Shown: positions 1 to 26,071 of the stretch, one piece after another | How positions within the stretch are numbered: the first letter of the stretch is position 1 | Layout: every line of letters begins with the position of its first letter | Virus record (IMG/VR): IMGVR_UViG_3300044998_000750 | Span: 1 to 26,682 of that record | Direction: 5' to 3' (one strand) | From: a virus | DNA: 26,682 nucleotides | Translations under genes and position numbers: made by a program | Notes under the pieces: model-generated | The model's database searches: none | Seen by the model: only the letters and a program-made list of their open reading frames with translations | What the model was told of the DNA's origin: nothing

Positions 1-542
1 AGCCCCGGCTCATAATGCCGGTCAATCATCATGGCCTGCCGCATTTCTTCATAAACGAAACCCCATGTCTTTTCATCTTCGGGAGCCTCATTCATCTTTT
101 CCAAGCAATTGTGAAAAGCCACCTTAATAGCTTGGACTTTGGCAAAATAAGTCATTTTGTCAAGCAGATATTCTCTGGTGTCCAAACCAGGAACGTAATA
201 CTCGTAAAGAGTATGAAGTTCACCCGTGTAATAAATCTGGATCGCTTTTTCTCTATCTTTTAGTTTGTCTTGAAGCTCTTGGTGTAAAATAAACCGTTCT
301 GGAATCGTGTGATGTTTTGCAAAGTATTCAAAAAGCAGACCACAAATCGTAACGTGGGCTTCACTCGAAAAATAGATTGGCTTGATCTTATCCACGCTCT
401 GAACGAGCATGAAATGATCTGTCAACAACATGCCCAGCAATTTCTTTTGAAAAGTCTCGTCCCAAGCAAACTTAGTTTTGCTAACGTCTGGGTCCGTCAG
501 CAACTCAAGTTTTGCCTGTTCTTCGGGAGTTAACTCACGCAT
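1..542 (-). CDS. Replicative DNA helicase, N-terminal part (gp41/DnaB-type), runs off the window
   Basis: The gene reads leftwards from an ATG at 542 and is open to the window edge, giving 180 residues. What is seen is an all-helical N-terminal segment with a core beginning FQKKLLGMLL, then a block about PERFILHQEL, and a late block with MRQAM followed by MIDRHYE. This order matches the N-terminal domain of DnaB-like helicases, and the MRQA block resembles the same place in T4 gp41. The RecA-like ATPase domain would lie outside the window. It starts 3 bases after the Nudix stop and is probably co-transcribed with it. The expected role is a hexameric replicative helicase at the phage fork. The family call rests on pattern only, because no Walker motif is inside the window. 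Confidence 0.6.
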   Translation of the reverse strand, partial: MRELTPEEQAKLELLTDPDVSKTKFAWDETFQKKLLGMLLTDHFMLVQSVDKIKPIYFSSEAHVTICGLLFEYFAKHHTIPERFILHQELQDKLKDREKAIQIYYTGELHTLYEYYVPGLDTREYLLDKMTYFAKVQAIKVAFHNCLEKMNEAPEDEKTWGFVYEEMRQAMMIDRHYEPG

Positions 543-2671: not shown

Positions 2672-2709
2672 TTATTCCTTTTTGATTACGTTATTCCTTT
2701 TTGATTACG
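2672..2709. repeat. Perfect 19-bp tandem duplication at a gene junction
   Basis: Positions 2672-2690 and 2691-2709 are identical, and the identity runs 2 bases further. On the minus strand the unit carries the last codons of the DNA polymerase (VIKKE), its stop and an AAGGAATAA ribosome-binding sequence. The promoter-proximal copy ends the polymerase; the other copy forms the leader of the 2089-2670 gene. Deleting one unit would leave both genes intact, so this copy is benign. Confidence 0.9.
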
Positions 2710-4004
2710 TTCTTTAATTCATTGAGATTTTTGCCTGCCTTAGCAGACACCCTCAGCTTTAAGCCGGGACACAATTGGCTCTCGGACGAGAGGGCAGCTA
2801 TAGCTCGTTTGTAAACTTCCTTCCACTTATCTTTCGACGTGTACACCATATACCCGTCATGGACGTGGTAGGCCAATTTAGTAAAAGGAACTAGAGCTTG
2901 ATAAAGTTGGATTAGTTTTTCTAAGCAAACTATTGAGGCGGGAGATTGGACGCAAAAATTGCGTACTCTATATTCTTTTCCGTCGAAATAACGGCGTTTG
3001 CCAAATATATCATCGGCATAGCCTCTTTCTTTTACCTGATCTTGATAAGCCTGTACCCAAGCCAGAGCAGTTGGAAAAAGTTCGTGCATACGGTTTACAA
3101 TTGTTTCGGCGTTGACCTCTGCAATTTTGAGCCTGTCAGCCAGAGTATGAGCCGACATTCCGTATATAACCGGCAAGAAGAATTTTTTACATTTATCTCT
3201 TGCCTCTTTTAAATTAGTCTGCTCTCCAATTATTTTTTCGTAAAGTGAAAAATATACGTCGTCTTTTTGACAAAGTTCGGTTAATAGTGGGTCTTTGGAT
3301 AGCCAAGCCAGCATGAAAACTTCCATGCTGTTGAAATCGAAATACATGAAAAATTGATCGGGAAGGGGCTTCAACTTGGCCCGCTTTTCTTCGGTCAAAT
3401 TATGCGGGATATAGCCCTTGCTATAAGCCTTATGACAAAGCAGCCGACCATTTTCTTGGCCGTCAATTTCGTAATAAGCGTAGGATTGACCCTCAAAATC
3501 CGGGTCGATTATTCCGACCGTTTCGAGATGCGGCAAAACAGCGGTCATAAGCGGCAATTGAATATTTCGATAAATCACCGAGGATTTTTTGTAATTTGGC
3601 TCTGCCATTACTTTTTTCATCCGACCTAACGCTTCACCCAAAGTCTTTGGCGCAGCCAATTTCATGCCCAAATATGATTCGATTATTTTCAAATCAATAA
3701 TTGCACATTCGCACACAAGCGGCTTTTTGGTCTTGCCAAGCACATAGCTTGCGAAATTCTTCCAGTTCCAAGTGATTACCCTCGATCCCTTGGCAAACAG
3801 GGAGTAAGTCAACAACTGTGCTACTCTCTCTAAGTCATCTACCTTCTCAATCTCAAAAGAATATGACTGACCACCAGTTGCATGAATATGCAACTTGATT
3901 TCTTCTTTCTTTTCGGTGAAATCCAAGATTTCTGGCTCGAAAAGAAAAAGGCAATTGTTTGTCTCCAAACTTCCGAGAAATTCGGAAAACTTTACAAGGT
4001 CCAT
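2691..4004 (-). CDS. Family A DNA polymerase, polymerase domain with degenerate exonuclease region
   Basis: A 437-residue protein with the three polymerase A motifs in order. Motif A is YFDFNSMEVFMLAWLS with catalytic D223. Motif B (O-helix) begins RDKCKKFF and ends YG at 281-282. Motif C is HVHDGYMVY with catalytic D383. Motif C normally reads HDE; here the second acidic residue is G384. The N-terminal 170 residues have a spacing reminiscent of the 3'-5' exonuclease fold (WNWKNFASYVL, then IIDLKIIESYLG), but the Asp/Glu catalytic set is not evident, so proofreading is doubtful. There is no 5'-nuclease domain. It is much shorter than a Klenow-type enzyme of about 600 residues. It heads a minus-strand replication block ending with the helicase gene. 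The assignment is firm; its fidelity is inferred. Confidence 0.9.
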   Translation of the reverse strand: MDLVKFSEFLGSLETNNCLFLFEPEILDFTEKKEEIKLHIHATGGQSYSFEIEKVDDLERVAQLLTYSLFAKGSRVITWNWKNFASYVLGKTKKPLVCECAIIDLKIIESYLGMKLAAPKTLGEALGRMKKVMAEPNYKKSSVIYRNIQLPLMTAVLPHLETVGIIDPDFEGQSYAYYEIDGQENGRLLCHKAYSKGYIPHNLTEEKRAKLKPLPDQFFMYFDFNSMEVFMLAWLSKDPLLTELCQKDDVYFSLYEKIIGEQTNLKEARDKCKKFFLPVIYGMSAHTLADRLKIAEVNAETIVNRMHELFPTALAWVQAYQDQVKERGYADDIFGKRRYFDGKEYRVRNFCVQSPASIVCLEKLIQLYQALVPFTKLAYHVHDGYMVYTSKDKWKEVYKRAIAALSSESQLCPGLKLRVSAKAGKNLNELKNVIKKE

Positions 4005-4134
4005 TTTGCGCCATCTTCATTTAGCCACTGAGATAAACCTAGCTAAGTATAGCCTTCATTGGGAATTAAAACAAGAGAAGTTACTGAATTATAGCTCTTT
4101 ATTGTGATATGCGCATACCAAGAGCCGTGTTAAA

Positions 4135-4555
4135 GTTATAGTGATTTATAAAGAAAGAATACTATAGAGTAATATTCTTTCTTCTTGTTTTAGTAGAGAG
4201 ATTTCTCAACTCTACCAAACTATCACTATGCTTAACTTAATGTTCCGTACTGAGACGGAGAATCAGTGTACCCAATGAAAAATGCAGCAACCAAACCATA
4301 GATTAGTTCACTTGCTCGTCTGCTAAGTGAAATACGGCATTTTGGCTAATCTTGGCACACCTACGCTGCTGACCCGGATGGTTCTTGTCGGCCATCCTGA
4401 TACCTGTCAAGGCGGTCGGTTTTTTCACTTGAATTTCTTCGAGGGGGTACTCTCAAATATTTCAAGTGGGAAGAAGCGGTAACTAGCCGCTTATACATTT
4501 CTGTACTTAGAGCTTCCTTCTCAGTCACTTTGAAGTCCAACGACGAGACTTTTCG
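4135..4555. ncRNA. Candidate large structured RNA in a 630-bp gene-free gap
   Basis: Between divergent genes (4005-4635) no convincing ORF is seen, but stems are dense. 4138-4145 pairs with 4222-4229 and encloses 4151-4164/4170-4183 (13 of 14 pairs) and 4193-4198/4210-4215. Downstream are 4301-4306/4346-4351 enclosing 4307-4313/4325-4331; 4376-4381/4392-4397; 4426-4433/4461-4468; 4474-4479/4487-4492; and 4533-4537/4547-4551. At 4244-4267 two exclusive hairpins compete (TCCGT/ACGGA or ACTGA/TCAGT). The density and nesting suggest a folded RNA of several hundred bases. The strand is not determined; a TATAAT at 4557-4562 faces the downstream plus-strand gene. It matches no RNA family I recognise. 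Confidence 0.4.
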
Positions 4556-4635
4556 ATATAATAGCAACAAACTTCCGATGTTCAAGAGCGAAAAGCGTAA
4601 ATATTCCTGTTGATCTTCCCTGCGCATGAGGTACA

Positions 4636-5367
4636 ATGGCCAAAAAGAAAAGTTCGTCAAATTCCGAGGATGATTTTATGCCACTTCTCGATGCAATTGC
4701 CTATTATGGCATGGATAAACTCGAATCTGCTGCCTACAAATTGTGCATTATCTGGATCGAAAAAAGCAGGAAATTTTTCCCCGATTACGATCATACAAAA
4801 TTGCGCCGAGGCGATCCACGTCAATCGCTGATGTTCAAGGTTTGTTACAAATTCGTGCGAGAAACCCAAGGAATTCTGGACGAGGAAGATTATCCCTTGT
4901 ACGTCCGTGCCCAACTCGATATATTGAAAAATATAAGTCTTGGGAGCGATGAACATCCCCTTATCGAACCCAATATCCTCGTCGGGGAGAAGGCATGGAA
5001 GCGTTGGAAACTGTGGAAGAAAAAATATGATTCTGTCGTCTCCGAAAAGGGTTTCACCACTAAAATTACGGCTTCGTCCCAAAAAGTCTTGGATGCGTTT
5101 GAAAAAACCAAAGAGTTTATTTTCAAAACTCTCGGTCCCGAACCATCCCTCGAAAAATATCGAGAAGCCGTTATCAACAAAAATTTGTTCCGATGGATCA
5201 GTCTTGGGAAAATCTCGCCGTATTACTTGTGCTTGTCTCCGTATTTTAAGAAACTTGTCTCCGAAGAAGATTTGAAAAAGATTACTTTTGATCTTGAAAT
5301 CTATCGTGCTTGTCTTAATGATGAACTGATCGCCCTATTTGAAGAGAAATTCAAATATGAGTTCTAA
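4636..5367 (+). CDS. Hypothetical protein, 243 aa
   Basis: ATG at 4636 is preceded by GAGG at a good distance. The protein is soluble, mainly helical and rich in Lys, Trp and Tyr, starting with a basic MAKKKSS tail and an acidic EDDFMPLLDAI helix. No catalytic motif, Cys pair, signal or membrane segment is seen. It begins a plus-strand block after the structured gap, with a TATAAT-like sequence at 4557-4562 that could be its -10 element. The next gene follows 11 bases after its stop, suggesting an operon. I do not recognise the family. Confidence 0.75.
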   Translation: MAKKKSSSNSEDDFMPLLDAIAYYGMDKLESAAYKLCIIWIEKSRKFFPDYDHTKLRRGDPRQSLMFKVCYKFVRETQGILDEEDYPLYVRAQLDILKNISLGSDEHPLIEPNILVGEKAWKRWKLWKKKYDSVVSEKGFTTKITASSQKVLDAFEKTKEFIFKTLGPEPSLEKYREAVINKNLFRWISLGKISPYYLCLSPYFKKLVSEEDLKKITFDLEIYRACLNDELIALFEEKFKYEF

Positions 5368-7279: not shown

Positions 7280-7831
7280 TTATCTTCCAAATAGCCAAGA
7301 CAAAAATCCTTGGTTTGTTCCCCAACGTCCCAACATCCAGTTGACAAAATTCGCTGGGTCTTTGAAACCTGATCCAGAACGAATCGTATTCTCGTCTTTG
7401 TCAATCAAAACATAGGCTGGAATTCCACGAACGCTGTACTTGCGAGCCAATTCTTTTCTCTTGTCTGTATCGACGTGAATATGAATGATATTGCCATCGG
7501 CAATAGCTTTCTTTACCTCTTGGCTCTTTATGGTGCCTTCGAGTTTCCGACACCAAGTACACCAGTCAGCCCCAAAGACAATTAACACCTTTCTATCAGA
7601 TCGCTTCGCCTCTGCCAAGGCTTCTTCGTAAGTTGTGATTGCCAACGGACCATTATCAGGAGGCGTTATAACAGGAGGATTAGGATTTACTGGTCTGTTA
7701 TCGACCTGCACGTTATCCCAAATGCTTTGTTGCGGGCCAGAATGATTGAATTGCTCTTTGCTGAAATAGATAGCAGCCACTAACAGCAACAATGCTGCAA
7801 CGACGAAATTCAAAATATTCTTCTTAAACAT
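7280..7831 (-). CDS. Membrane-anchored thioredoxin-like protein
   Basis: A 183-residue protein. Residues 5-23 form one hydrophobic segment (uncleaved signal anchor), then a Pro-rich linker (about 46-62), then a thioredoxin fold. The active site WCTWC is at 90-94 with C91 and C94, and the cis-proline is in RGIPAY at P138. This topology places the redox domain outside the cytoplasmic membrane, as in DsbD-gamma or thiol:disulfide interchange proteins. It would reduce or form disulfides in envelope proteins, perhaps the Cys-rich secreted protein at 18433-18642; that link is speculative. Its start overlaps the pyrB stop by 8 bases, and AAGGAA lies upstream. Confidence 0.85.
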   Translation of the reverse strand: MFKKNILNFVVAALLLLVAAIYFSKEQFNHSGPQQSIWDNVQVDNRPVNPNPPVITPPDNGPLAITTYEEALAEAKRSDRKVLIVFGADWCTWCRKLEGTIKSQEVKKAIADGNIIHIHVDTDKRKELARKYSVRGIPAYVLIDKDENTIRSGSGFKDPANFVNWMLGRWGTNQGFLSWLFGR

Positions 7832-8720
7832 GGTTTAGTAATTCCTTTAATATCGCTATCCTTATATACAGTCCATTTCTTATTTGTTGATCTTTATAAA
7901 CGGCCCTGTGATCCTCATCCACATCGGTATGTATTTCTGCACGCCTCGGAAGAGGATGTAAAATTATTGCGTTTTGACCTAAATTCTCTACTAATTTTCG
8001 TGTTAAAATGGGGAATTTCAAGGTCTGTGTGTCAATGCCCGGAAAGCGTTCGTCTTGGATTCGAGTCATATAAATTACGTCAGCATCAGCCACATCAGCG
8101 ACATGATCCACATATGATCCGTCATTTTCTTGATAGTTGAAGCTGTATTCTGGGTGTTTTGCAGGACAGAGCAAAAACTCATTTCCTTCGTAGAGTTTTA
8201 GAAGTTGGATAAGCGATCTTACTGTGCGGCTGTGACGTAAATCGCCGCAAAAAAGAAATTTGAGATTTGATGTGCGACCGAACTTCTTGTAAATTGTCAG
8301 CAAATCCAGCATTGCTTGAGTCGGATGTTCATCGCTTCCATTTCCAGCATTGATGACTGGTACTGAAGCCGCATCTGCTTCATTGATCCAAGTTTCGTCC
8401 GGGTGACGAAAGACAATTACATCTGAATATTGGGAAAGTGTATAAAGGGTGTCACGAATACTTTCACCCTTTCTTAGCGAAGATGATGCCGAAGCATCTG
8501 CTGCTGTAACTACTGAGCCACCGAGCCAATGCATGGCTCTTTCAAAAGAAATTCTTGTTCGAGTAGAGGCTTCGCCAAAAAAAGATGCCATCGTTTTGTT
8601 CGACCAAAATTCTCTCGGTCGAAATGGTGCATGGAACATCTTTTCGATTTCCATTGCCGAAATTAACAGTTTTTCAATCTTCTCACGGTCCAATTGCTTC
8701 ACCGACAAGAAGTTTTTCAT
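7824..8720 (-). CDS. pyrB: Aspartate carbamoyltransferase, catalytic chain
   Basis: This enzyme joins carbamoyl phosphate and L-aspartate to make N-carbamoyl-aspartate, the committed step of pyrimidine synthesis. With ATG 8720 (298 residues) the known catalytic residues fall at the E. coli positions: S52-T53-R54-T55 in the STRTR loop, K84 in LRKGES, and R105 in FRHP. HPTQ is at 132-135, HSRTVRS at about 163-169, TRIQDERF is the aspartate-binding loop and HPLPR lies near the C-terminus. All are intact, so it is probably active as a catalytic trimer; no pyrI is present. An upstream in-frame TTG at 8741 is less likely. In a phage it would be an auxiliary metabolic gene boosting pyrimidine supply. 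It overlaps the thioredoxin gene downstream. Confidence 0.95.
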   Translation of the reverse strand: MKNFLSVKQLDREKIEKLLISAMEIEKMFHAPFRPREFWSNKTMASFFGEASTRTRISFERAMHWLGGSVVTAADASASSSLRKGESIRDTLYTLSQYSDVIVFRHPDETWINEADAASVPVINAGNGSDEHPTQAMLDLLTIYKKFGRTSNLKFLFCGDLRHSRTVRSLIQLLKLYEGNEFLLCPAKHPEYSFNYQENDGSYVDHVADVADADVIYMTRIQDERFPGIDTQTLKFPILTRKLVENLGQNAIILHPLPRRAEIHTDVDEDHRAVYKDQQIRNGLYIRIAILKELLNHV

Positions 8721-8765
8721 TTCATGGGTTCTCCCGTACAAAAACTGTTAATTTATAGCAAATTT

Positions 8766-10318: not shown

Positions 10319-10498
10319 ATGAAGGCGATGGACTAAAGATCGCCTCAGAAATTTCTCCCTCTTGAAGCAAGATGAAGTATGGTCAAACAGGACACAGATG
10401 GGACAACAATCACACGACTGAAAGTTGTCCAAAGATTGCCTCAAGAGTTTTTCTCGTTCCCGTCGTAAAAATTACGATGACAACACTATATAAGGTTG

Positions 10499-11746
10499 AT
10501 GAATAAAAGGCTAGCCAAAAAGAACGAAACCAAAGAGAAGCGGAAGTCGCAGACCTGTAAGGTGTACGAAGTCAAAATTGACCACTCGCACCTGTCGGTC
10601 GCTGCTCTCGGACATCTCAACGGTTTGTTCAAGGAAGCCAAATGGTTCTACAACTACTGCCTGTCCCACGACAACGTGGATGATGCCGACACGACTACAA
10701 AGAAAGTACCTGTCAAGGTCGGAGACAAATACGAAACTCGATACTTTGATGTCCTGACTTCGCAAATGAAGCAAGGTATCAAGACACGACTGTTTGGTTC
10801 GCTTATGTCGCTCTCGGCGTTGAAGGAACAAGGATACAAAGTGGGAAGGTTGAAGTTCAAGGGAATGGTGAACTCCATCCCGCTCAAGCAGTTCAATAAC
10901 TCCTACTACATCAGAGAAGGTAAAGTACGGTTGCAAGGCATGAGGCAATGGTTGAGAGTACGAGGGCTTGAGCAAATACCGAAAGAAGCCGAGATTGCTT
11001 GTGCGACCTTGATACGGAGGAACGGCGACTACTACATCAACATTACGACCTACGCCAACAAACAGAAGAAGCACATCCCCGAAGCAGTGATAGGCATTGA
11101 CTTTGGGTGCGAGACACAACTGACATTTTCTAATGGTGTCAAGGTTCGGTTTCAAGTTCCTGTGTCCAAGAGGTTGAGGAAGTTGGACAGGAAGATAATG
11201 AAGAAGAGACGGAAGGATAGCAACAACAAGGAGAAGGATAAGGAGAAGAGAAGGATTGAGTACGAGAAATTGACCAATCGTAGGAAGGACATTCGGCATA
11301 AGTTGGTCAATGCTGTTGTGAGCAACTATCGGTATGTTGTTTTTCAGGACGAGAGCATTGCTGGGTGGAAAGCAAGCGGTCATGGAAAGAAAGTTCAATT
11401 TTCAGGCATTGGGTCTATATTGGCTGACTTGAAGCACAAGGCAGTCGCTCCGCTTGAAGTGGACAAGTTCTATCCCTCTACCAAGCTCTGCCCTAAGTGT
11501 GGGAAGAAGAACGCACCGACACTTGCCGATAGGGTGTATGAGTGTGGTTGTGGTTTTGTGATGGACAGGGATGTTAAGTCGGCAATATGTATCAGGGATG
11601 AGGGAATGAGACAAATACCTGTGGAACGCAGGGAATATACGCTTGGGGAGATTTCAACCTCTACTTTTCTTGGGGCTTTGAGTAAAATCAAAGGCATTCA
11701 AGTGAGCAAGTTGGAGTCGTTGAGCCAAGAAGCCGCTACCCTTTAG
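10499..11746 (+). CDS. tnpB: TnpB RNA-guided nuclease, element 1
   Basis: TnpB proteins are RuvC-type nucleases guided by an RNA made from the element's right end. With ATG 10499 (AAGG upstream; a TTG lies one codon before) it has 415 residues. RuvC-I is VIGIDFG (D201). RuvC-II is VVFQDESIAGW (about E285), the FQDE type rather than the common I-E-D. RuvC-III is MDRDVKSAI (D358). The zinc ribbon has C331-x2-C334 and, unusually, C349-x-C351. The N-terminal domain is basic with a long charged helix (about 225-265). The stop codon lies inside the right-end hairpin, so coding sequence and guide-RNA scaffold overlap. It appears complete and differs in sequence from the other two TnpBs here. Confidence 0.9.
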   Translation: MNKRLAKKNETKEKRKSQTCKVYEVKIDHSHLSVAALGHLNGLFKEAKWFYNYCLSHDNVDDADTTTKKVPVKVGDKYETRYFDVLTSQMKQGIKTRLFGSLMSLSALKEQGYKVGRLKFKGMVNSIPLKQFNNSYYIREGKVRLQGMRQWLRVRGLEQIPKEAEIACATLIRRNGDYYINITTYANKQKKHIPEAVIGIDFGCETQLTFSNGVKVRFQVPVSKRLRKLDRKIMKKRRKDSNNKEKDKEKRRIEYEKLTNRRKDIRHKLVNAVVSNYRYVVFQDESIAGWKASGHGKKVQFSGIGSILADLKHKAVAPLEVDKFYPSTKLCPKCGKKNAPTLADRVYECGCGFVMDRDVKSAICIRDEGMRQIPVERREYTLGEISTSTFLGALSKIKGIQVSKLESLSQEAATL

Positions 11747-13197: not shown

Positions 13198-13356
13198 ATG
13201 ACAAAGAAAAAGAACATAGCCGACAAGGTACTATCTGTCCGAGTCCCAAGCGAACTGTTCGATAAGTTCAAGAAACTCTGCGATGAGAACTACAAAACCA
13301 TGTCGGACACGTTGCGTGACTTCATCAGAGAATATACCAAACAAGGAAACAAGTGA
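13198..13356 (+). CDS. Ribbon-helix-helix (CopG/Arc-type) small DNA-binding protein
   Basis: A 52-residue protein from ATG 13198. A basic N-tail is followed by VLSVRVPSELFDKFKKL (beta strand and first helix), then YKTMSDTLRDFIREY (second helix), the usual RHH layout. RHH dimers bind operators through the strand. Its stop overlaps the tnpB GTG start (GTGA, 13353-13356), so it is coupled to tnpB and probably represses the element or aids its maintenance. The longer frame from 13162 has no better start. The presence of an RHH gene in front of a transposase-less tnpB is noteworthy. Confidence 0.8.
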   Translation: MTKKKNIADKVLSVRVPSELFDKFKKLCDENYKTMSDTLRDFIREYTKQGNK

Positions 13357-14582
13357 AGCATCTGTACTCCTATAAGTTTCGATTGTCACCAACACCACAA
13401 CAGGAAGTATTGCTTGCCAAGCACTTCGGCTGCGTTAGGTGGGTGTACAACCACTTCCTCGACAAGAGGATTGAGGAGTACAAGACCAACAAGAAGTCGT
13501 TGAAGCGGAGCGACAACGAGAAAGAACTACCAGAACTCAAGACGACCTACACTTGGCTCAATGAAGTAGGTAGCCAATCCTTGCAGTATGCGGTCGAGTG
13601 CTTGCAGAACGCTTACAACCATTTCTTCCGCAGGTGCAAGGAAAAGAAGAAAGGGAAGAAGGGCTTCCCACGCTTCAAGAAAAAGTACCAGCAACAGTCC
13701 TTCCGAGTCAAGCAGAACATCTACTTGATAGACGGCAGACTGGTAATGCCTAAGTTCCTTGAAGGCATACCAGTCATCCAACATCGTGATGTTGAAGGCG
13801 AGATACAGTTTGCGACCATCAACAAAAACAAGGCAGGGCAGTATCATGTTAGCATCACGGTCGAGCGTGAGATACAACCGCTACCAGAGACGGCAGAAGT
13901 CATTGCTTATGACCTGAACGTGCGTGGCATGGTAGATAGCAACGGTAATGTGGAGAACAACCCACGACCGATGAAGCAGTATGCCAAGCGATTGAAACTT
14001 CTGCATCAGGCGGTTAGTCGTGCGGAGAAAGGAAAGAATGGACGAAGGAAAGCATGTACCAAGTTAGCGAAGTTGTACCTCAAGGTACACAACAAGCGTG
14101 AAGACTTCCTGCACAAGTTGTCGAGACGTATCATCAACGAAAACCAAGTTGTATGCGTCGAGGACTTGAGCGTTGAGTCCATGCTTGCAAAGGTAGCACC
14201 CGAAGAACGAGATGAGCCGAGATGGAAGGAACGCCGCAGGCACAAAGACATTGCCGATTGTGGTTTCTACTCGTTCATCCAGAAGTTGTGCTACAAAGCC
14301 GTCTGGTATGGCAGGCAAGTCGTGAAGGTGAGTCGCTGGTTTCCGTCATCGCAGTTATGTCATCACTGCGGCTGGAGGAACAAGGACTTGAAACCACACG
14401 AACGAGAGTGGTGTTGTTGGAACTGTTGGGAGACAAACCAACGTGACCACAATTCGGCTTGCAACATACTGGACGAAGGGCTTAGAATAAGAACCTCTGG
14501 AACAGAGGGGATAGCCGCTTGCTCTGATGTAAGACCCGCTAAAAGTGGGCTGTTGGTTAGAGCGGAAGCCGCTCCCCTTTAG
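13353..14582 (+). CDS. tnpB: TnpB RNA-guided nuclease, element 2
   Basis: Starts at GTG 13353, overlapping the RHH stop; 409 residues. The N-terminus YSYKFRLSPTPQQE is typical of IS605 TnpB. RuvC-I is IAYDLNV (D187, with N in place of the usual G). RuvC-II is CVEDLSV (E270). RuvC-III is NQRDHNSACNIL (D365, preceded by R rather than DR). The zinc ribbon is C336-x2-C339 with C355-x2-C358. All metal ligands are present, so activity is plausible. The C-terminal 35 residues are rich in Ala and Gly and overlap the guide-RNA scaffold; the stop lies in the loop of the right-end hairpin, exactly as in element 1. Confidence 0.9.
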   Translation: MKHLYSYKFRLSPTPQQEVLLAKHFGCVRWVYNHFLDKRIEEYKTNKKSLKRSDNEKELPELKTTYTWLNEVGSQSLQYAVECLQNAYNHFFRRCKEKKKGKKGFPRFKKKYQQQSFRVKQNIYLIDGRLVMPKFLEGIPVIQHRDVEGEIQFATINKNKAGQYHVSITVEREIQPLPETAEVIAYDLNVRGMVDSNGNVENNPRPMKQYAKRLKLLHQAVSRAEKGKNGRRKACTKLAKLYLKVHNKREDFLHKLSRRIINENQVVCVEDLSVESMLAKVAPEERDEPRWKERRRHKDIADCGFYSFIQKLCYKAVWYGRQVVKVSRWFPSSQLCHHCGWRNKDLKPHEREWCCWNCWETNQRDHNSACNILDEGLRIRTSGTEGIAACSDVRPAKSGLLVRAEAAPL

Positions 14583-20366: not shown

Positions 20367-21806
20367 TTAAAAGTCAATTTTATCTTTAATTGTAACGGTA
20401 TGTCCTTGCTCTTTCAATATTCTGATACGCTTCTGGCTGTGTTCCAAGAGATAGGGGTTTATATTAAACAAGAAGTCGTAGTAATTCAAACCTTCTTTAT
20501 CTTCTGCTGTACGAAGTCCACGACCCATTCTCTGAATGATTTGGTGATCGGCCTGCCCACCAGCAGCGTTAATGAGATTGTGGATAAAGACGTTGATACC
20601 CGTGTTGAAAATCTGCTGGGTAGCAATCGCAATTACGTTCTTTTTTGATTTTTGAAGAGTCTCGATAACGCCCTTGCGGGTTTTTGAGTCGTCTTTTCCT
20701 TGTACCCATAAAGACCCCGGCAAGAGATTATGGAGGGCATCGCCGTGGGCAATACGATCCACCAGAATAAGTGTTCTGCCTTTTTGTTGTTTGGCGAGCT
20801 TAGTGACAATTTTGTGGAAGTGGAAACTTTCCGCAATACCACGAGTGACAGCATCCAGATAAATATCGTAAGGAATTGCAGGTTCGTCTATTGGGTAGAA
20901 CGTACAGTCGGAAGCAGAAAGAATGCCACGATTTTGTAGCTCTTTGGTTGTGAGTACGCCACCCTCAGCCGATTTAATTTCCAGAACCGGCCCGAAGAAT
21001 CCTTTGACGTAATATTTTTGAACTTTGTCTTTCTCGCCAAATTTAAACGGTGTAGCACTGAGGGCTACCCGTATATCGCAACTTTTGAGTCTACGATATA
21101 CAGCTTTAGGCAAAGCGCTCATCATGTCGTGGATTTCATCCACGATTACCACTTTGATTTTTGATAGCACTTTTTCCATTTTGGCTACGGACTGGACCGA
21201 TGCCACGGTAATTATGTTTGGTTTTACATTACCACCCCATAACGTACCGACATTCTGAACTCCCCATTTACTGATTTCAGAATAGTTTTGTTCAGCCAAG
21301 CCGACTCTATTTTGTAAAACAAGGGTCGGCGTGTTTGGCGGAATTGCACGCAGAATGCCGAGCATGATGAAGGTTTTGCCCGCACTTGTGGGGGCATATA
21401 TAACGCCTCGTCTATGCTTGATTACTTTGTTAACTAACTCAACTTGGTAATCATGAAGCGTAACCGGGTTGTATCCCGGTGGCAGGGCATTGTTGAAAAA
21501 ATCTTCTTTTATTTCAGAATATAGGAACGGTGTTTTTGTTCTTTCGTCCTGAATTTCATATGATACATTGAAGTGCTTTAATGCTGAAAGCACTTCAGGT
21601 AGCAGCCCCGTGAGGAATTTGCCTGTTTCGAGTTTGAAGAATTCGGTATAGCCGTCCCACATGCCCATTTTGTAGCGGCGATTGTGGAAATAGTTCCTTT
21701 CACGGAATCTGAGGCAATCCCAAATCTTGTGTTTTATTCCAGTCTGATCTGTCATCAGAAAGGAATAGTCATTGCTGATTTTGAGTATTGCTTTGCTGTT
21801 GCTCAT
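20367..21806 (-). CDS. UvsW-like superfamily 2 helicase
   Basis: A 479-residue protein. An N-terminal domain (about 1-110) with MGMWDGYTEFF and FLTGLLPEVL resembles the DNA-binding part of T4 UvsW. Then follow Walker A APTSAGKT (138-145), DEIH (223-226), SAT (250-252) and motif VI QRMGRGLR (425-432). UvsW-type helicases unwind branched DNA, drive fork regression, and switch T4 from origin- to recombination-dependent replication. All motifs are intact. ATG 21806 has AAAAGGT upstream. It heads the minus-strand block of nuclease genes. The superfamily assignment is firm; the UvsW label rests on the N-terminal resemblance and phage context. Confidence 0.85.
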   Translation of the reverse strand: MSNSKAILKISNDYSFLMTDQTGIKHKIWDCLRFRERNYFHNRRYKMGMWDGYTEFFKLETGKFLTGLLPEVLSALKHFNVSYEIQDERTKTPFLYSEIKEDFFNNALPPGYNPVTLHDYQVELVNKVIKHRRGVIYAPTSAGKTFIMLGILRAIPPNTPTLVLQNRVGLAEQNYSEISKWGVQNVGTLWGGNVKPNIITVASVQSVAKMEKVLSKIKVVIVDEIHDMMSALPKAVYRRLKSCDIRVALSATPFKFGEKDKVQKYYVKGFFGPVLEIKSAEGGVLTTKELQNRGILSASDCTFYPIDEPAIPYDIYLDAVTRGIAESFHFHKIVTKLAKQQKGRTLILVDRIAHGDALHNLLPGSLWVQGKDDSKTRKGVIETLQKSKKNVIAIATQQIFNTGINVFIHNLINAAGGQADHQIIQRMGRGLRTAEDKEGLNYYDFLFNINPYLLEHSQKRIRILKEQGHTVTIKDKIDF

Positions 21807-24046: not shown

Positions 24047-24241
24047 ATGTTGAGCCGAAAGATCGTCAAAGTAACCAAAACCGAGTTTGAAACAGCAGAT
24101 GGAACTGTCCATCCTATGATGTTTGAACTCGATGAAATCCCCACAGTTGAGGAGTTTCAGAAACAATACGATGAATGGCTTCATGTGTTCCGTGAAAAGG
24201 AACTATTGGAGAATGAACCAGAAATTGTTAAGCATCGGTAA
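24047..24241 (+). CDS. Small accessory protein of the IS607-type element, 64 aa
   Basis: It has GAGAGGAAAC before ATG 24047. The protein is acidic: a beta-strand start (KIVKVTKTEFETADGTV), then DEIPTVEEFQKQYDEWLHV, a helical second half. There is no DNA-binding motif. It overlaps the tnpA start by 29 bases and so is translated just ahead of it. Most IS607 elements have only tnpA and tnpB, so this may be an added regulator or a coupling leader. Function unknown. Confidence 0.6.
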   Translation: MLSRKIVKVTKTEFETADGTVHPMMFELDEIPTVEEFQKQYDEWLHVFREKELLENEPEIVKHR

Positions 24242-24863
24242 AGCCGCAGACCTACTCGGAGTCCATATAAACACTCTGAGAACTTGGGATGATGAAGGTA
24301 AACTGGAAGCAGTCAAGACTTGTGGGAATCACCGCAGGTATCGCCTAACCGACATCCAGAAACTCTGTGGCGAACACCAAGAACAGAAAAAGAAAGATAC
24401 TGTTCGAGTTGGAACTTACTGTAGAGTAAGTTCACATGAACAGAAGCAAAAAGGCGACCTTGAACGACAGAACGGGCGTGTCTTGGCTTATTGTGTCAAG
24501 CAAGGCTACCATGTCGTCAAGTCGTTTGAGGAAGTCGGGTCGGGCATGTGTGACACCCGATCCAAACTACAACAACTGTTCAAGCTGGTTTCTAACAAAG
24601 AGATTGACAAGGTTGTAGTCGAACACAAAGATCGCTTGACTCGCTTCAACTTTGAGTTTTTGAACCAGTTTTTTGCCAGCCATGATGTTGAAGTTGAATG
24701 GATTGGTGAAGTTCTTGGAAAGACTTATGAGGCAGAGCTTGTCGAAGACATGCTTTCACTCATGTCTTCATTTAGTAATCGAATCTATGGTCGCAGAAGT
24801 GCCGAGATAAAGAAGCAAAGGAAGTTATTGGAACAACAGAAGCAGGAGGCAACTGCATGTTGA
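24213..24863 (+). CDS. tnpA: IS607-type serine recombinase transposase
   Basis: A 216-residue protein from ATG 24213. The longer frame upstream duplicates the accessory gene's region and is not expected. Residues 4-55 form a MerR-like winged HTH (LLSIGKAADLLGVHINTLRTW, shown only in part). The serine recombinase domain follows with YCRVSSHEQ (S73 catalytic) and KVVVEHKDRLTRF with the active-site arginines. This N-terminal HTH order is diagnostic of IS607 against large serine integrases. It cuts at GG/GG dinucleotides and rejoins through a covalent Ser-DNA link. The start lies very close to GGAGA, so coupling with the upstream gene is likely. The stop overlaps tnpB. Confidence 0.9.
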   Translation: MNQKLLSIGKAADLLGVHINTLRTWDDEGKLEAVKTCGNHRRYRLTDIQKLCGEHQEQKKKDTVRVGTYCRVSSHEQKQKGDLERQNGRVLAYCVKQGYHVVKSFEEVGSGMCDTRSKLQQLFKLVSNKEIDKVVVEHKDRLTRFNFEFLNQFFASHDVEVEWIGEVLGKTYEAELVEDMLSLMSSFSNRIYGRRSAEIKKQRKLLEQQKQEATAC

Positions 24864-26071
24864 TCCAACGAGGATACAAAACAGAACTCGACCCAAACAA
24901 TAAGCAAAGAACCTTGTTGTTGAAGAACGCTGGTGCAGCAAGATACGCCTATAATTGGGGTCTGAAAATCAAGCAGCAGGCGATGCAGAACAAGACCAAG
25001 TTGCCGACCGCTGTGGATTTGCACAGAGAGATCAACAAACTCAAAAAGACTGATATTCCGTGGGCGTATGAATGCAGCAAGTGCAGTTTTCAAGAGGCAT
25101 TACGGAATCTGGACAGTGCCTTCAAGCACTTCTTTCGCAAGTGCAAATTGAAGAAAGAAGGCAAGTTCAATGGCAAAGTTGGCTTCCCCAAGAAAAAGGT
25201 CAAAAAGAAAAGCATCGGTAGTTTTCGCTTGACTGGATCAATCAAAGTCTTTGAGTCTCATGTTCAACTACCAAAAATTGGCAAGATCAGACTCAAGGAA
25301 CATGGCTACATCCCAACTAACGCCAAGATACTCAGTGCTGTTGTGAGCGAACATACAGGACGATGGTTTGTTTCGGTCCAAGTTGAAGAACAACTGCCTG
25401 AAGCAACAGTCAAAGAGAAATGTTCAGTAGGCGTTGATCTTGGAATCAAAACATTGGCTATGCCGAGTAGAGGCGAGCCATTTGAAAATCCCAAAGCACT
25501 CAAGAAGAACTTAAAGAAAATCAAGCGATTGGGAAGATGGGTTAGCCGAAAAGAAAAAGGCAAGAAGAACAGAAAGAAAGCAGCAAGACGATTGGGTAAG
25601 CTCCATTACAGGATTGCTTGCATCAGGAAAGATACATTACATAAGATCACAAGTGAATTGACGAAAACCAAGTCGAGGATCGTGATTGAGGATTTGAATG
25701 TGTCTGGAATGTTGAAAAACCATTGTCTTGCTCAAGCCATTCAGGATGTAGGTCTGTACGAGTTCAGACGGCAACTTGAATACAAAGGAAGTTGGTATGG
25801 GTGTGAGATCGTCAAAGCTGATCGTTTCTTCCCATCTAGCAAGAAGTGTTCCAAGTGCGGCAATATCAAGAACGGCTTGAAGTTGTCAGACAGAACATAC
25901 AGGTGTGATTGTTGTGGCTTGGTGATTGACCGAGACTTTAATGCAGCGATCAACCTTGAGAATTATAGTACCGATAGTTCGTCGGGAACTGGCAGTAATG
26001 CCAACGCCTTTGGAGAGGGAAGCTCTGGCTTTGCTCATGCGAGTAGAGTGAAACTACCTTCGTTGAATTAG
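24857..26071 (+). CDS. tnpB: TnpB RNA-guided nuclease of the IS607-type element
   Basis: 404 residues, close in length and motif positions to ISDra2 TnpB. RuvC-I is VGVDLGIKTL (D194), RuvC-II is VIEDLNVSGM (E278) and RuvC-III is IDRDFNAAIN (D360). The zinc ribbon is C331-x2-C334 and C350-x2-C353. The N-terminal bridge contains long Lys-rich helices, and the tail SSGTGSNANAFGEGSS is typical of TnpB ends that overlap the guide-RNA gene. All catalytic residues are intact. The start codon overlaps the tnpA stop (24857-24863). The guide would be the host bases after the right GG, starting TAAAGTTGAA. It differs from both other TnpBs in the window. Confidence 0.92.
   Translation: MLIQRGYKTELDPNNKQRTLLLKNAGAARYAYNWGLKIKQQAMQNKTKLPTAVDLHREINKLKKTDIPWAYECSKCSFQEALRNLDSAFKHFFRKCKLKKEGKFNGKVGFPKKKVKKKSIGSFRLTGSIKVFESHVQLPKIGKIRLKEHGYIPTNAKILSAVVSEHTGRWFVSVQVEEQLPEATVKEKCSVGVDLGIKTLAMPSRGEPFENPKALKKNLKKIKRLGRWVSRKEKGKKNRKKAARRLGKLHYRIACIRKDTLHKITSELTKTKSRIVIEDLNVSGMLKNHCLAQAIQDVGLYEFRRQLEYKGSWYGCEIVKADRFFPSSKKCSKCGNIKNGLKLSDRTYRCDCCGLVIDRDFNAAINLENYSTDSSSGTGSNANAFGEGSSGFAHASRVKLPSLN

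Follow-up and report, generated by a model that had tools for sequence, protein, structure and literature searches.

A conserved structured RNA upstream of the family-A DNA polymerase gene in a broad phage group and its putative role in replication

In the window, a linear IMG/VR virus record of 26,682 bases, a gap separates a family-A DNA polymerase gene on the minus strand from a divergent gene on the plus strand that encodes a 243-aa protein. The locus raises the question of whether this gap encodes an RNA and, if so, what such an RNA does beside a replication gene. A sequence-only reading had described stems there, in a gap without a credible ORF, and proposed a large ornate non-coding RNA, possibly new and not recognisable as GOLLD or ROOL, without naming its strand.

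Folding, homologs and covariation

The stems were present, and positions 4130-4560 folded better than every shuffle on both strands (plus, -124.1 kcal/mol, z -4.7; minus, -124.8 kcal/mol, z -5.5; 0/100 shuffles as good for each). No conserved reading frame was found in the gap, and coding was rejected, since the 99-aa minus-strand ORF is not kept in relatives, being broken in L002 and L003. Rfam covariance models, used at gathering and permissive thresholds, identified no family and gave only chance matches to AU-rich hairpins. Specifically, the GOLLD model was without a match at its gathering score and found nothing in the gap at E values up to 10, and the ROOL model matched at neither gathering nor permissive thresholds, in agreement with the proposal that neither is recognisable here. 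A Blastn search of 50,697 phage records, for which four versions of the RNA served as queries, produced scattered short matches only. The RNA was not described in the searchable papers, whose coverage leaves out most subscription papers. Since Rfam contains no relative of it, annotated phage genomes gave no match and searchable papers do not describe it, we rate it as a new class among large phage RNAs, in a replication context that had not been reported for such RNAs before.

Polymerase-guided scans of viral contigs returned 14, 42 and 70 loci, many of them on near-identical contigs; one homologous contig came from a Neisseriaceae MAG. In the closest relatives (L002, L003 and L004) the full gap aligned, with conserved blocks on the minus strand. 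At distant loci, whose polymerases are about 40-50% identical, the upstream sequence looks unrelated at first, yet several motifs are common to them (ACTGAGATGG, GTACCCC, AAAAAACYTG, ACRAG, GACRAG, AGTACAC and CTCGGT). A degenerate pattern scan gave 17 matches, 13 at the RNA locus and 4 by chance in coding or unrelated DNA. When 15 sequences were annotated by hand, the helices P3a, P3b, P3c, P4, P5 and P6 were present in all of them, with differing bases.

Covariation was assessed in alignment A3, made with MAFFT from 14 sequences without structure and without the window's group. Paired cells reached 78.7% in A3, compared with 36-48% when partners were slid; two-sided changes affected 34 of its 41 pairs, and two-sided changed cells numbered 94 against 34 +/- 5 in shuffles. 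Alignment A6 is model-fitted and leans to the structure, so that its values (90.2% paired cells; 270 two-sided cells against 79 +/- 9) are quoted only as a check. Within the window's own group, two-sided changes were seen in 16 of 122 pairs, the 3' domain among them. Model R1 was built from A3, that is, from other phages only, with a neighbouring polymerase <=54% identical and the window's group excluded. It matched the window at 4423-4281(-) with E = 1.8e-7, and it also recovered loci outside its training (L136, 1.6e-24; L094, 2.7e-24; L080, 1.2e-20; L119, 5.9e-17; L121, 1.8e-9); the Neisseriaceae MAG contig was likewise matched. Its matches always lay a few hundred bases upstream of the same family-A polymerase gene and in its direction, and searches of whole records gave one good match per record. 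Homologs and covariation, which the sequence-only reading had named as a check, were thus both found, and its large ornate non-coding RNA came through the folding, Rfam, homolog and covariation tests. Altogether, these comparisons show a conserved, structured, non-coding RNA, predicted to span about 450 nt on the minus strand (4551-4105).

Architecture and strand of the RNA

The RNA gene (~450 nt, 4105..4551, minus strand) is a homologous, structure-conserved region upstream of the polymerase gene. We placed its start by a sigma-70-like promoter at 4558..4585(-) (TTGAAC-16-TATTAT with an extended -10 TG, at the same place in L003 and in most relatives) and its 3' end, 4105, by the last conserved motif. 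Hairpin H1 (GGAAG/CTTCC, 4469..4517(-)) lies outside R1 and carries two extra loop hairpins in the window; all five of its pairs covary, in 18 of 23 relatives. Hairpin H2 (4426..4468(-)) has a conserved GAGTACCCC-type loop among the relatives compared. The conserved core P3a-P6 (4281..4423(-)) is the part that R1 matches, and its elements are supported by covariation: a three-way junction (4371..4417(-)) of P3a (GACC/GGTC, 4417-4414 with 4374-4371), P3b (4413-4402) and P3c (4397-4376, with an ACAAG apical motif), and P4 (GCAGC/GCTGC, 4284..4369(-)), which encloses P5 (AGATTAG/CTAATCT) and P6 (TCACTT/AAGTGA, with a GACGAG loop) at 4295-4356(-). ACRAG is a conserved unpaired motif in two hairpin loops. 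P5 and P6 correspond to a GATTAG/CTAATC stem around a 7-bp hairpin that had already been noticed from the window; similarly, the outer 8-bp stem that encloses a pair of hairpins corresponds to the 3' domain (4129..4236(-)), where a long stem, GTTAAG..ATAGTGAT/ATCACTAT..TTAAC, surrounds two hairpins in the relatives compared. Both show compensatory changes in relatives. The 3' motif CTTGGTATGCGCATATC (4106..4122(-); CTCGGT..TGCGCA in relatives) is conserved, and its CTTGGT could pair with ACTGAG at 4525-4520 as a candidate closing helix; ACTGAG/CTCGGT is paired in the window's group and several others and mismatched in others.

The minus strand is favoured because of the promoters and the co-orientation with the polymerase gene. 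Among 20 representatives, promoter scores exceeded those of shuffles upstream of the RNA (Fisher p about 1e-5) and between the RNA and the polymerase gene (5e-7), p values that are optimistic because the sequences are related. In the window, the promoter scan placed a separate sigma-70-like promoter of the polymerase gene at 4046..4074(-) (TTGTTT-17-TATACT). In addition, the pair at the base of P3b was G-U in 11 and G-C in 3 of 14 sequences and A-C in none; a pair that is always G-U or G-C fits an RNA of the minus strand. A wider comparison of G-U with A-C leans the same way, with wobble pairs exceeding A-C mismatches in part of the data only, and pairs common to both strands do not decide the strand. 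The consensus energy was -94.6 on the RNA strand and -80.8 on the other. These observations bear on a DNA-level origin element, whose palindromes would act as single-stranded DNA hairpins, such as primosome or initiator sites, and not as RNA. Such hairpins would likewise give two-sided changes, and both strands fold well. However, the long-range nesting of P4-P5-P6 together with the three-way junction, the P3b pair, the promoter upstream of the RNA in most records and the better consensus energy of the RNA strand argue for an RNA, and we consider the DNA element very improbable.

The position of the RNA, always directly upstream of the polymerase gene and co-directional with it, could also be that of a cis-acting leader of the polymerase operon, in which the fold would be read by the polymerase itself, by a metabolite or by a factor of the phage, and polymerase expression would be set by autoregulation, attenuation or antitermination. 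It suits this that the window has no intrinsic terminator-like site between the RNA and the polymerase gene; the same lack of a terminator-like site in the gap speaks against a leader or riboswitch whose structures control a terminator. Moreover, most records have a sigma-70-like promoter between the RNA and the polymerase gene, the conserved structure stops about 100 nt before the start codon, and neither a competing terminator nor an anti-RBS helix was seen. The one alternative hairpin that had been proposed also failed to hold. Positions 4244-4267 had been read as two exclusive hairpins, as in a switch; only TCCGT/ACGGA (4244..4259(-)) is conserved, with two pairs changed on both sides in four relatives, while ACTGA/TCAGT is lost in L002, L003 and L004. 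A leader function is therefore unlikely in our view.

The locus and its distribution

The truncated polymerase gene (437 aa, 2691..4004(-); Pfam PF00476, E 1.9e-26) lies directly 3' of the RNA at every locus. The gene for the 243-aa protein (4636..5367(+)) diverges from the RNA at almost all loci; its product is predicted to be all-helical (pLDDT 84) and had no family match and no reliable fold match in structure comparison. We considered a T4 gp59-like helicase loader and rejected it: sequence matches in Pfam, PHROG and PDB were not above chance, and structural matches were at the noise level for helical proteins, including a lambda P row with Z 5.3. The protein may be an origin protein, either an initiator or a loader. 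No iterons or direct repeats were found in the window's gap. No tRNA or tmRNA was detected in the RNA region; the single tRNA of the window, a tRNA-Ser, is 22 kb from the RNA, and tRNAs were absent from six relative loci.

Other genes of the window were also recorded. A ResIII/DEAD-type helicase (PHROG 16, possibly UvsW-like; 20367-21806(-)) and a DnaB-like helicase fragment (3-542(-)) are further replication genes near the RNA. An ORF at 7824-8741(-) resembles aspartate carbamoyltransferase (PHROG 37670, which has no listed function, at E 1.3e-31) and is possibly a pyrimidine-synthesis gene in a phage. This 27-kb phage fragment also carries three TnpB (OrfB_IS605/Cas12f-like) genes (10496-11746(+), 13353-14582(+) and 24857-26071(+)), the last preceded by a serine-recombinase-like ORF (24123-24863(+)) with the look of an IS607-type transposase.

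Taken together, the matches place the RNA in the replication locus of a broad and widespread set of phages, most of them uncultured and often very large. In the 595-kb phage LR756511 the polymerase is present and R1 did not match an RNA; there, the expected place of the RNA is taken by another polymerase-like gene (L016, 2771-3933(+)), which has an HDS motif and directly precedes the polymerase gene. Several other regions upstream of the polymerase gene (L068-L071, L086, L132, L127-L130, L133, L014, L027 and L043) look like more divergent versions of the RNA; such regions had no R1 match, and some of them have a TGCGC-type 3' motif.

Strand composition and a proposed role in replication

Across the RNA, raw GC skew rose in 13 of 13 tabulated records, starting near or below zero and reaching distinctly positive values. 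We modelled third-position G versus C (GC3) with gene orientation as a covariate, ORFs being called by a simple rule. In 12 related records, the orientation-corrected changepoint lay between -1 and 0 kb relative to the RNA core; its effect was 0.35, compared with a permutation sd of 0.04. Five hold-out records put the changepoint at -2 kb. The GC3 effect was positive, rising in the direction of the RNA, in all 21 records examined; with the nearest 4 kb excluded it was positive in 16 of 16, these records being related. The step is not unique within single genomes (rank 39/136 in the 381-kb relative G003 and 15/72 in the 225-kb relative G006), and promoter position and skew switch agree in the pooled records, not uniquely per genome. 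Near 267 kb, G003 has a GC3-skew step stronger than that at the RNA, which could mark an additional origin, an inverted segment or a join made during assembly. The raw skew of the window turns closer to 9 kb. In LR756511 the switch is present at the polymerase with the RNA undetected; the switch thus goes with the locus and not strictly with the RNA. It is fair to say that, over the group as a whole, the locus of the RNA and the polymerase gene has the behaviour of a replication origin, and that the RNA is read in the G-rich direction, that of the leading strand. An origin location is no proof of a role of the RNA in initiation; its place at the flip of strand composition suggests that it may help to start or control phage DNA replication.

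An RNA with its own promoter, next to a separate polymerase promoter, could also act in trans, as a scaffold, a cage or an RNA that binds proteins or ribosomes, like GOLLD, ROOL and OLE, and be merely encoded beside early replication genes with no part in initiation. Its compact multi-junction fold, its conserved unpaired motifs such as ACRAG and its single copy per record suit this possibility. GOLLD and ROOL are themselves cage-forming phage RNAs whose function is unknown; many GOLLD RNAs exceed 800 nt and the solved ROOL has 659 nt (PMC12286853). The RNA described here resembles them in being large, ornate, phage-borne, non-coding and covarying, and differs in being shorter (about 450 nt), in having no Rfam match to either, in not lying near tRNA islands and in its fixed place beside a family-A DNA polymerase gene and a strand-composition switch. 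A trans-acting function leaves unexplained why the RNA is strictly linked to one polymerase gene and the skew switch and not to tRNA islands; we hold it to be a serious, if less probable, possibility.

Our preferred reading, to which we give a probability of about 0.45, is that the RNA represents a new class of large RNAs in the replication module and is plausibly an origin pre-primer or R-loop RNA, its function being inferred. We infer that it acts in the initiation of replication or its control. The RNA would be transcribed through the origin and then fold, and its 3' part would stay as an RNA-DNA hybrid (R-loop). RNase H processing would leave an RNA 3' end, where either the Pol I-type polymerase encoded next to it or the replisome would start the leading strand, and the elaborate fold might control hybrid formation or recruit replication proteins.

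The transcript length, the Pol I-type neighbour and the leading-strand direction are what suggest a likeness to ColE1 RNA II or T4 oriF. ColE1 RNA II starts 555 bp upstream of the origin and is extended by DNA polymerase I (PMC11012335). The two have in common a similar length, an own promoter and a Pol I-family partner enzyme, and the present RNA would likewise be a folded transcript along leading-strand synthesis; in contrast, ColE1 is a plasmid and the present system is from phages, no sequence relation was shown, the promoter scan brought up no antisense RNA I, and the fold has another multi-junction core. The T4 polymerase belongs to family B. At T4 oriF, an R-loop origin, a transcript primes leading-strand synthesis (PMC3016281). 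Like T4 oriF and oriG, the present locus would be a phage origin at which transcription from a promoter provides the leading-strand primer; T4 R-loops are reportedly sequence-independent, whereas the fold of this RNA is strongly conserved.

A bolder form of the proposal, which we regard as doubtful, is that replication in a widespread large-phage lineage begins from a large, intricately folded RNA dedicated to the origin, which the adjacent Pol I-type polymerase extends or which loads this polymerase; the system would be RNA II-like, independently evolved and with the RNA fold under strong selection. If true, an RNA II-like system would have arisen on its own in phages. Very few big phage RNAs are on record, and the finding adds to them a large, strongly covarying class that Rfam does not contain. 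In contrast to GOLLD and ROOL, this class has a testable functional context: a single polymerase gene, a single conserved protein encoded divergently and a putative origin. Origin choice and firing in large phages are largely open questions, for which a defined RNA, promoter and locus can now be assayed.
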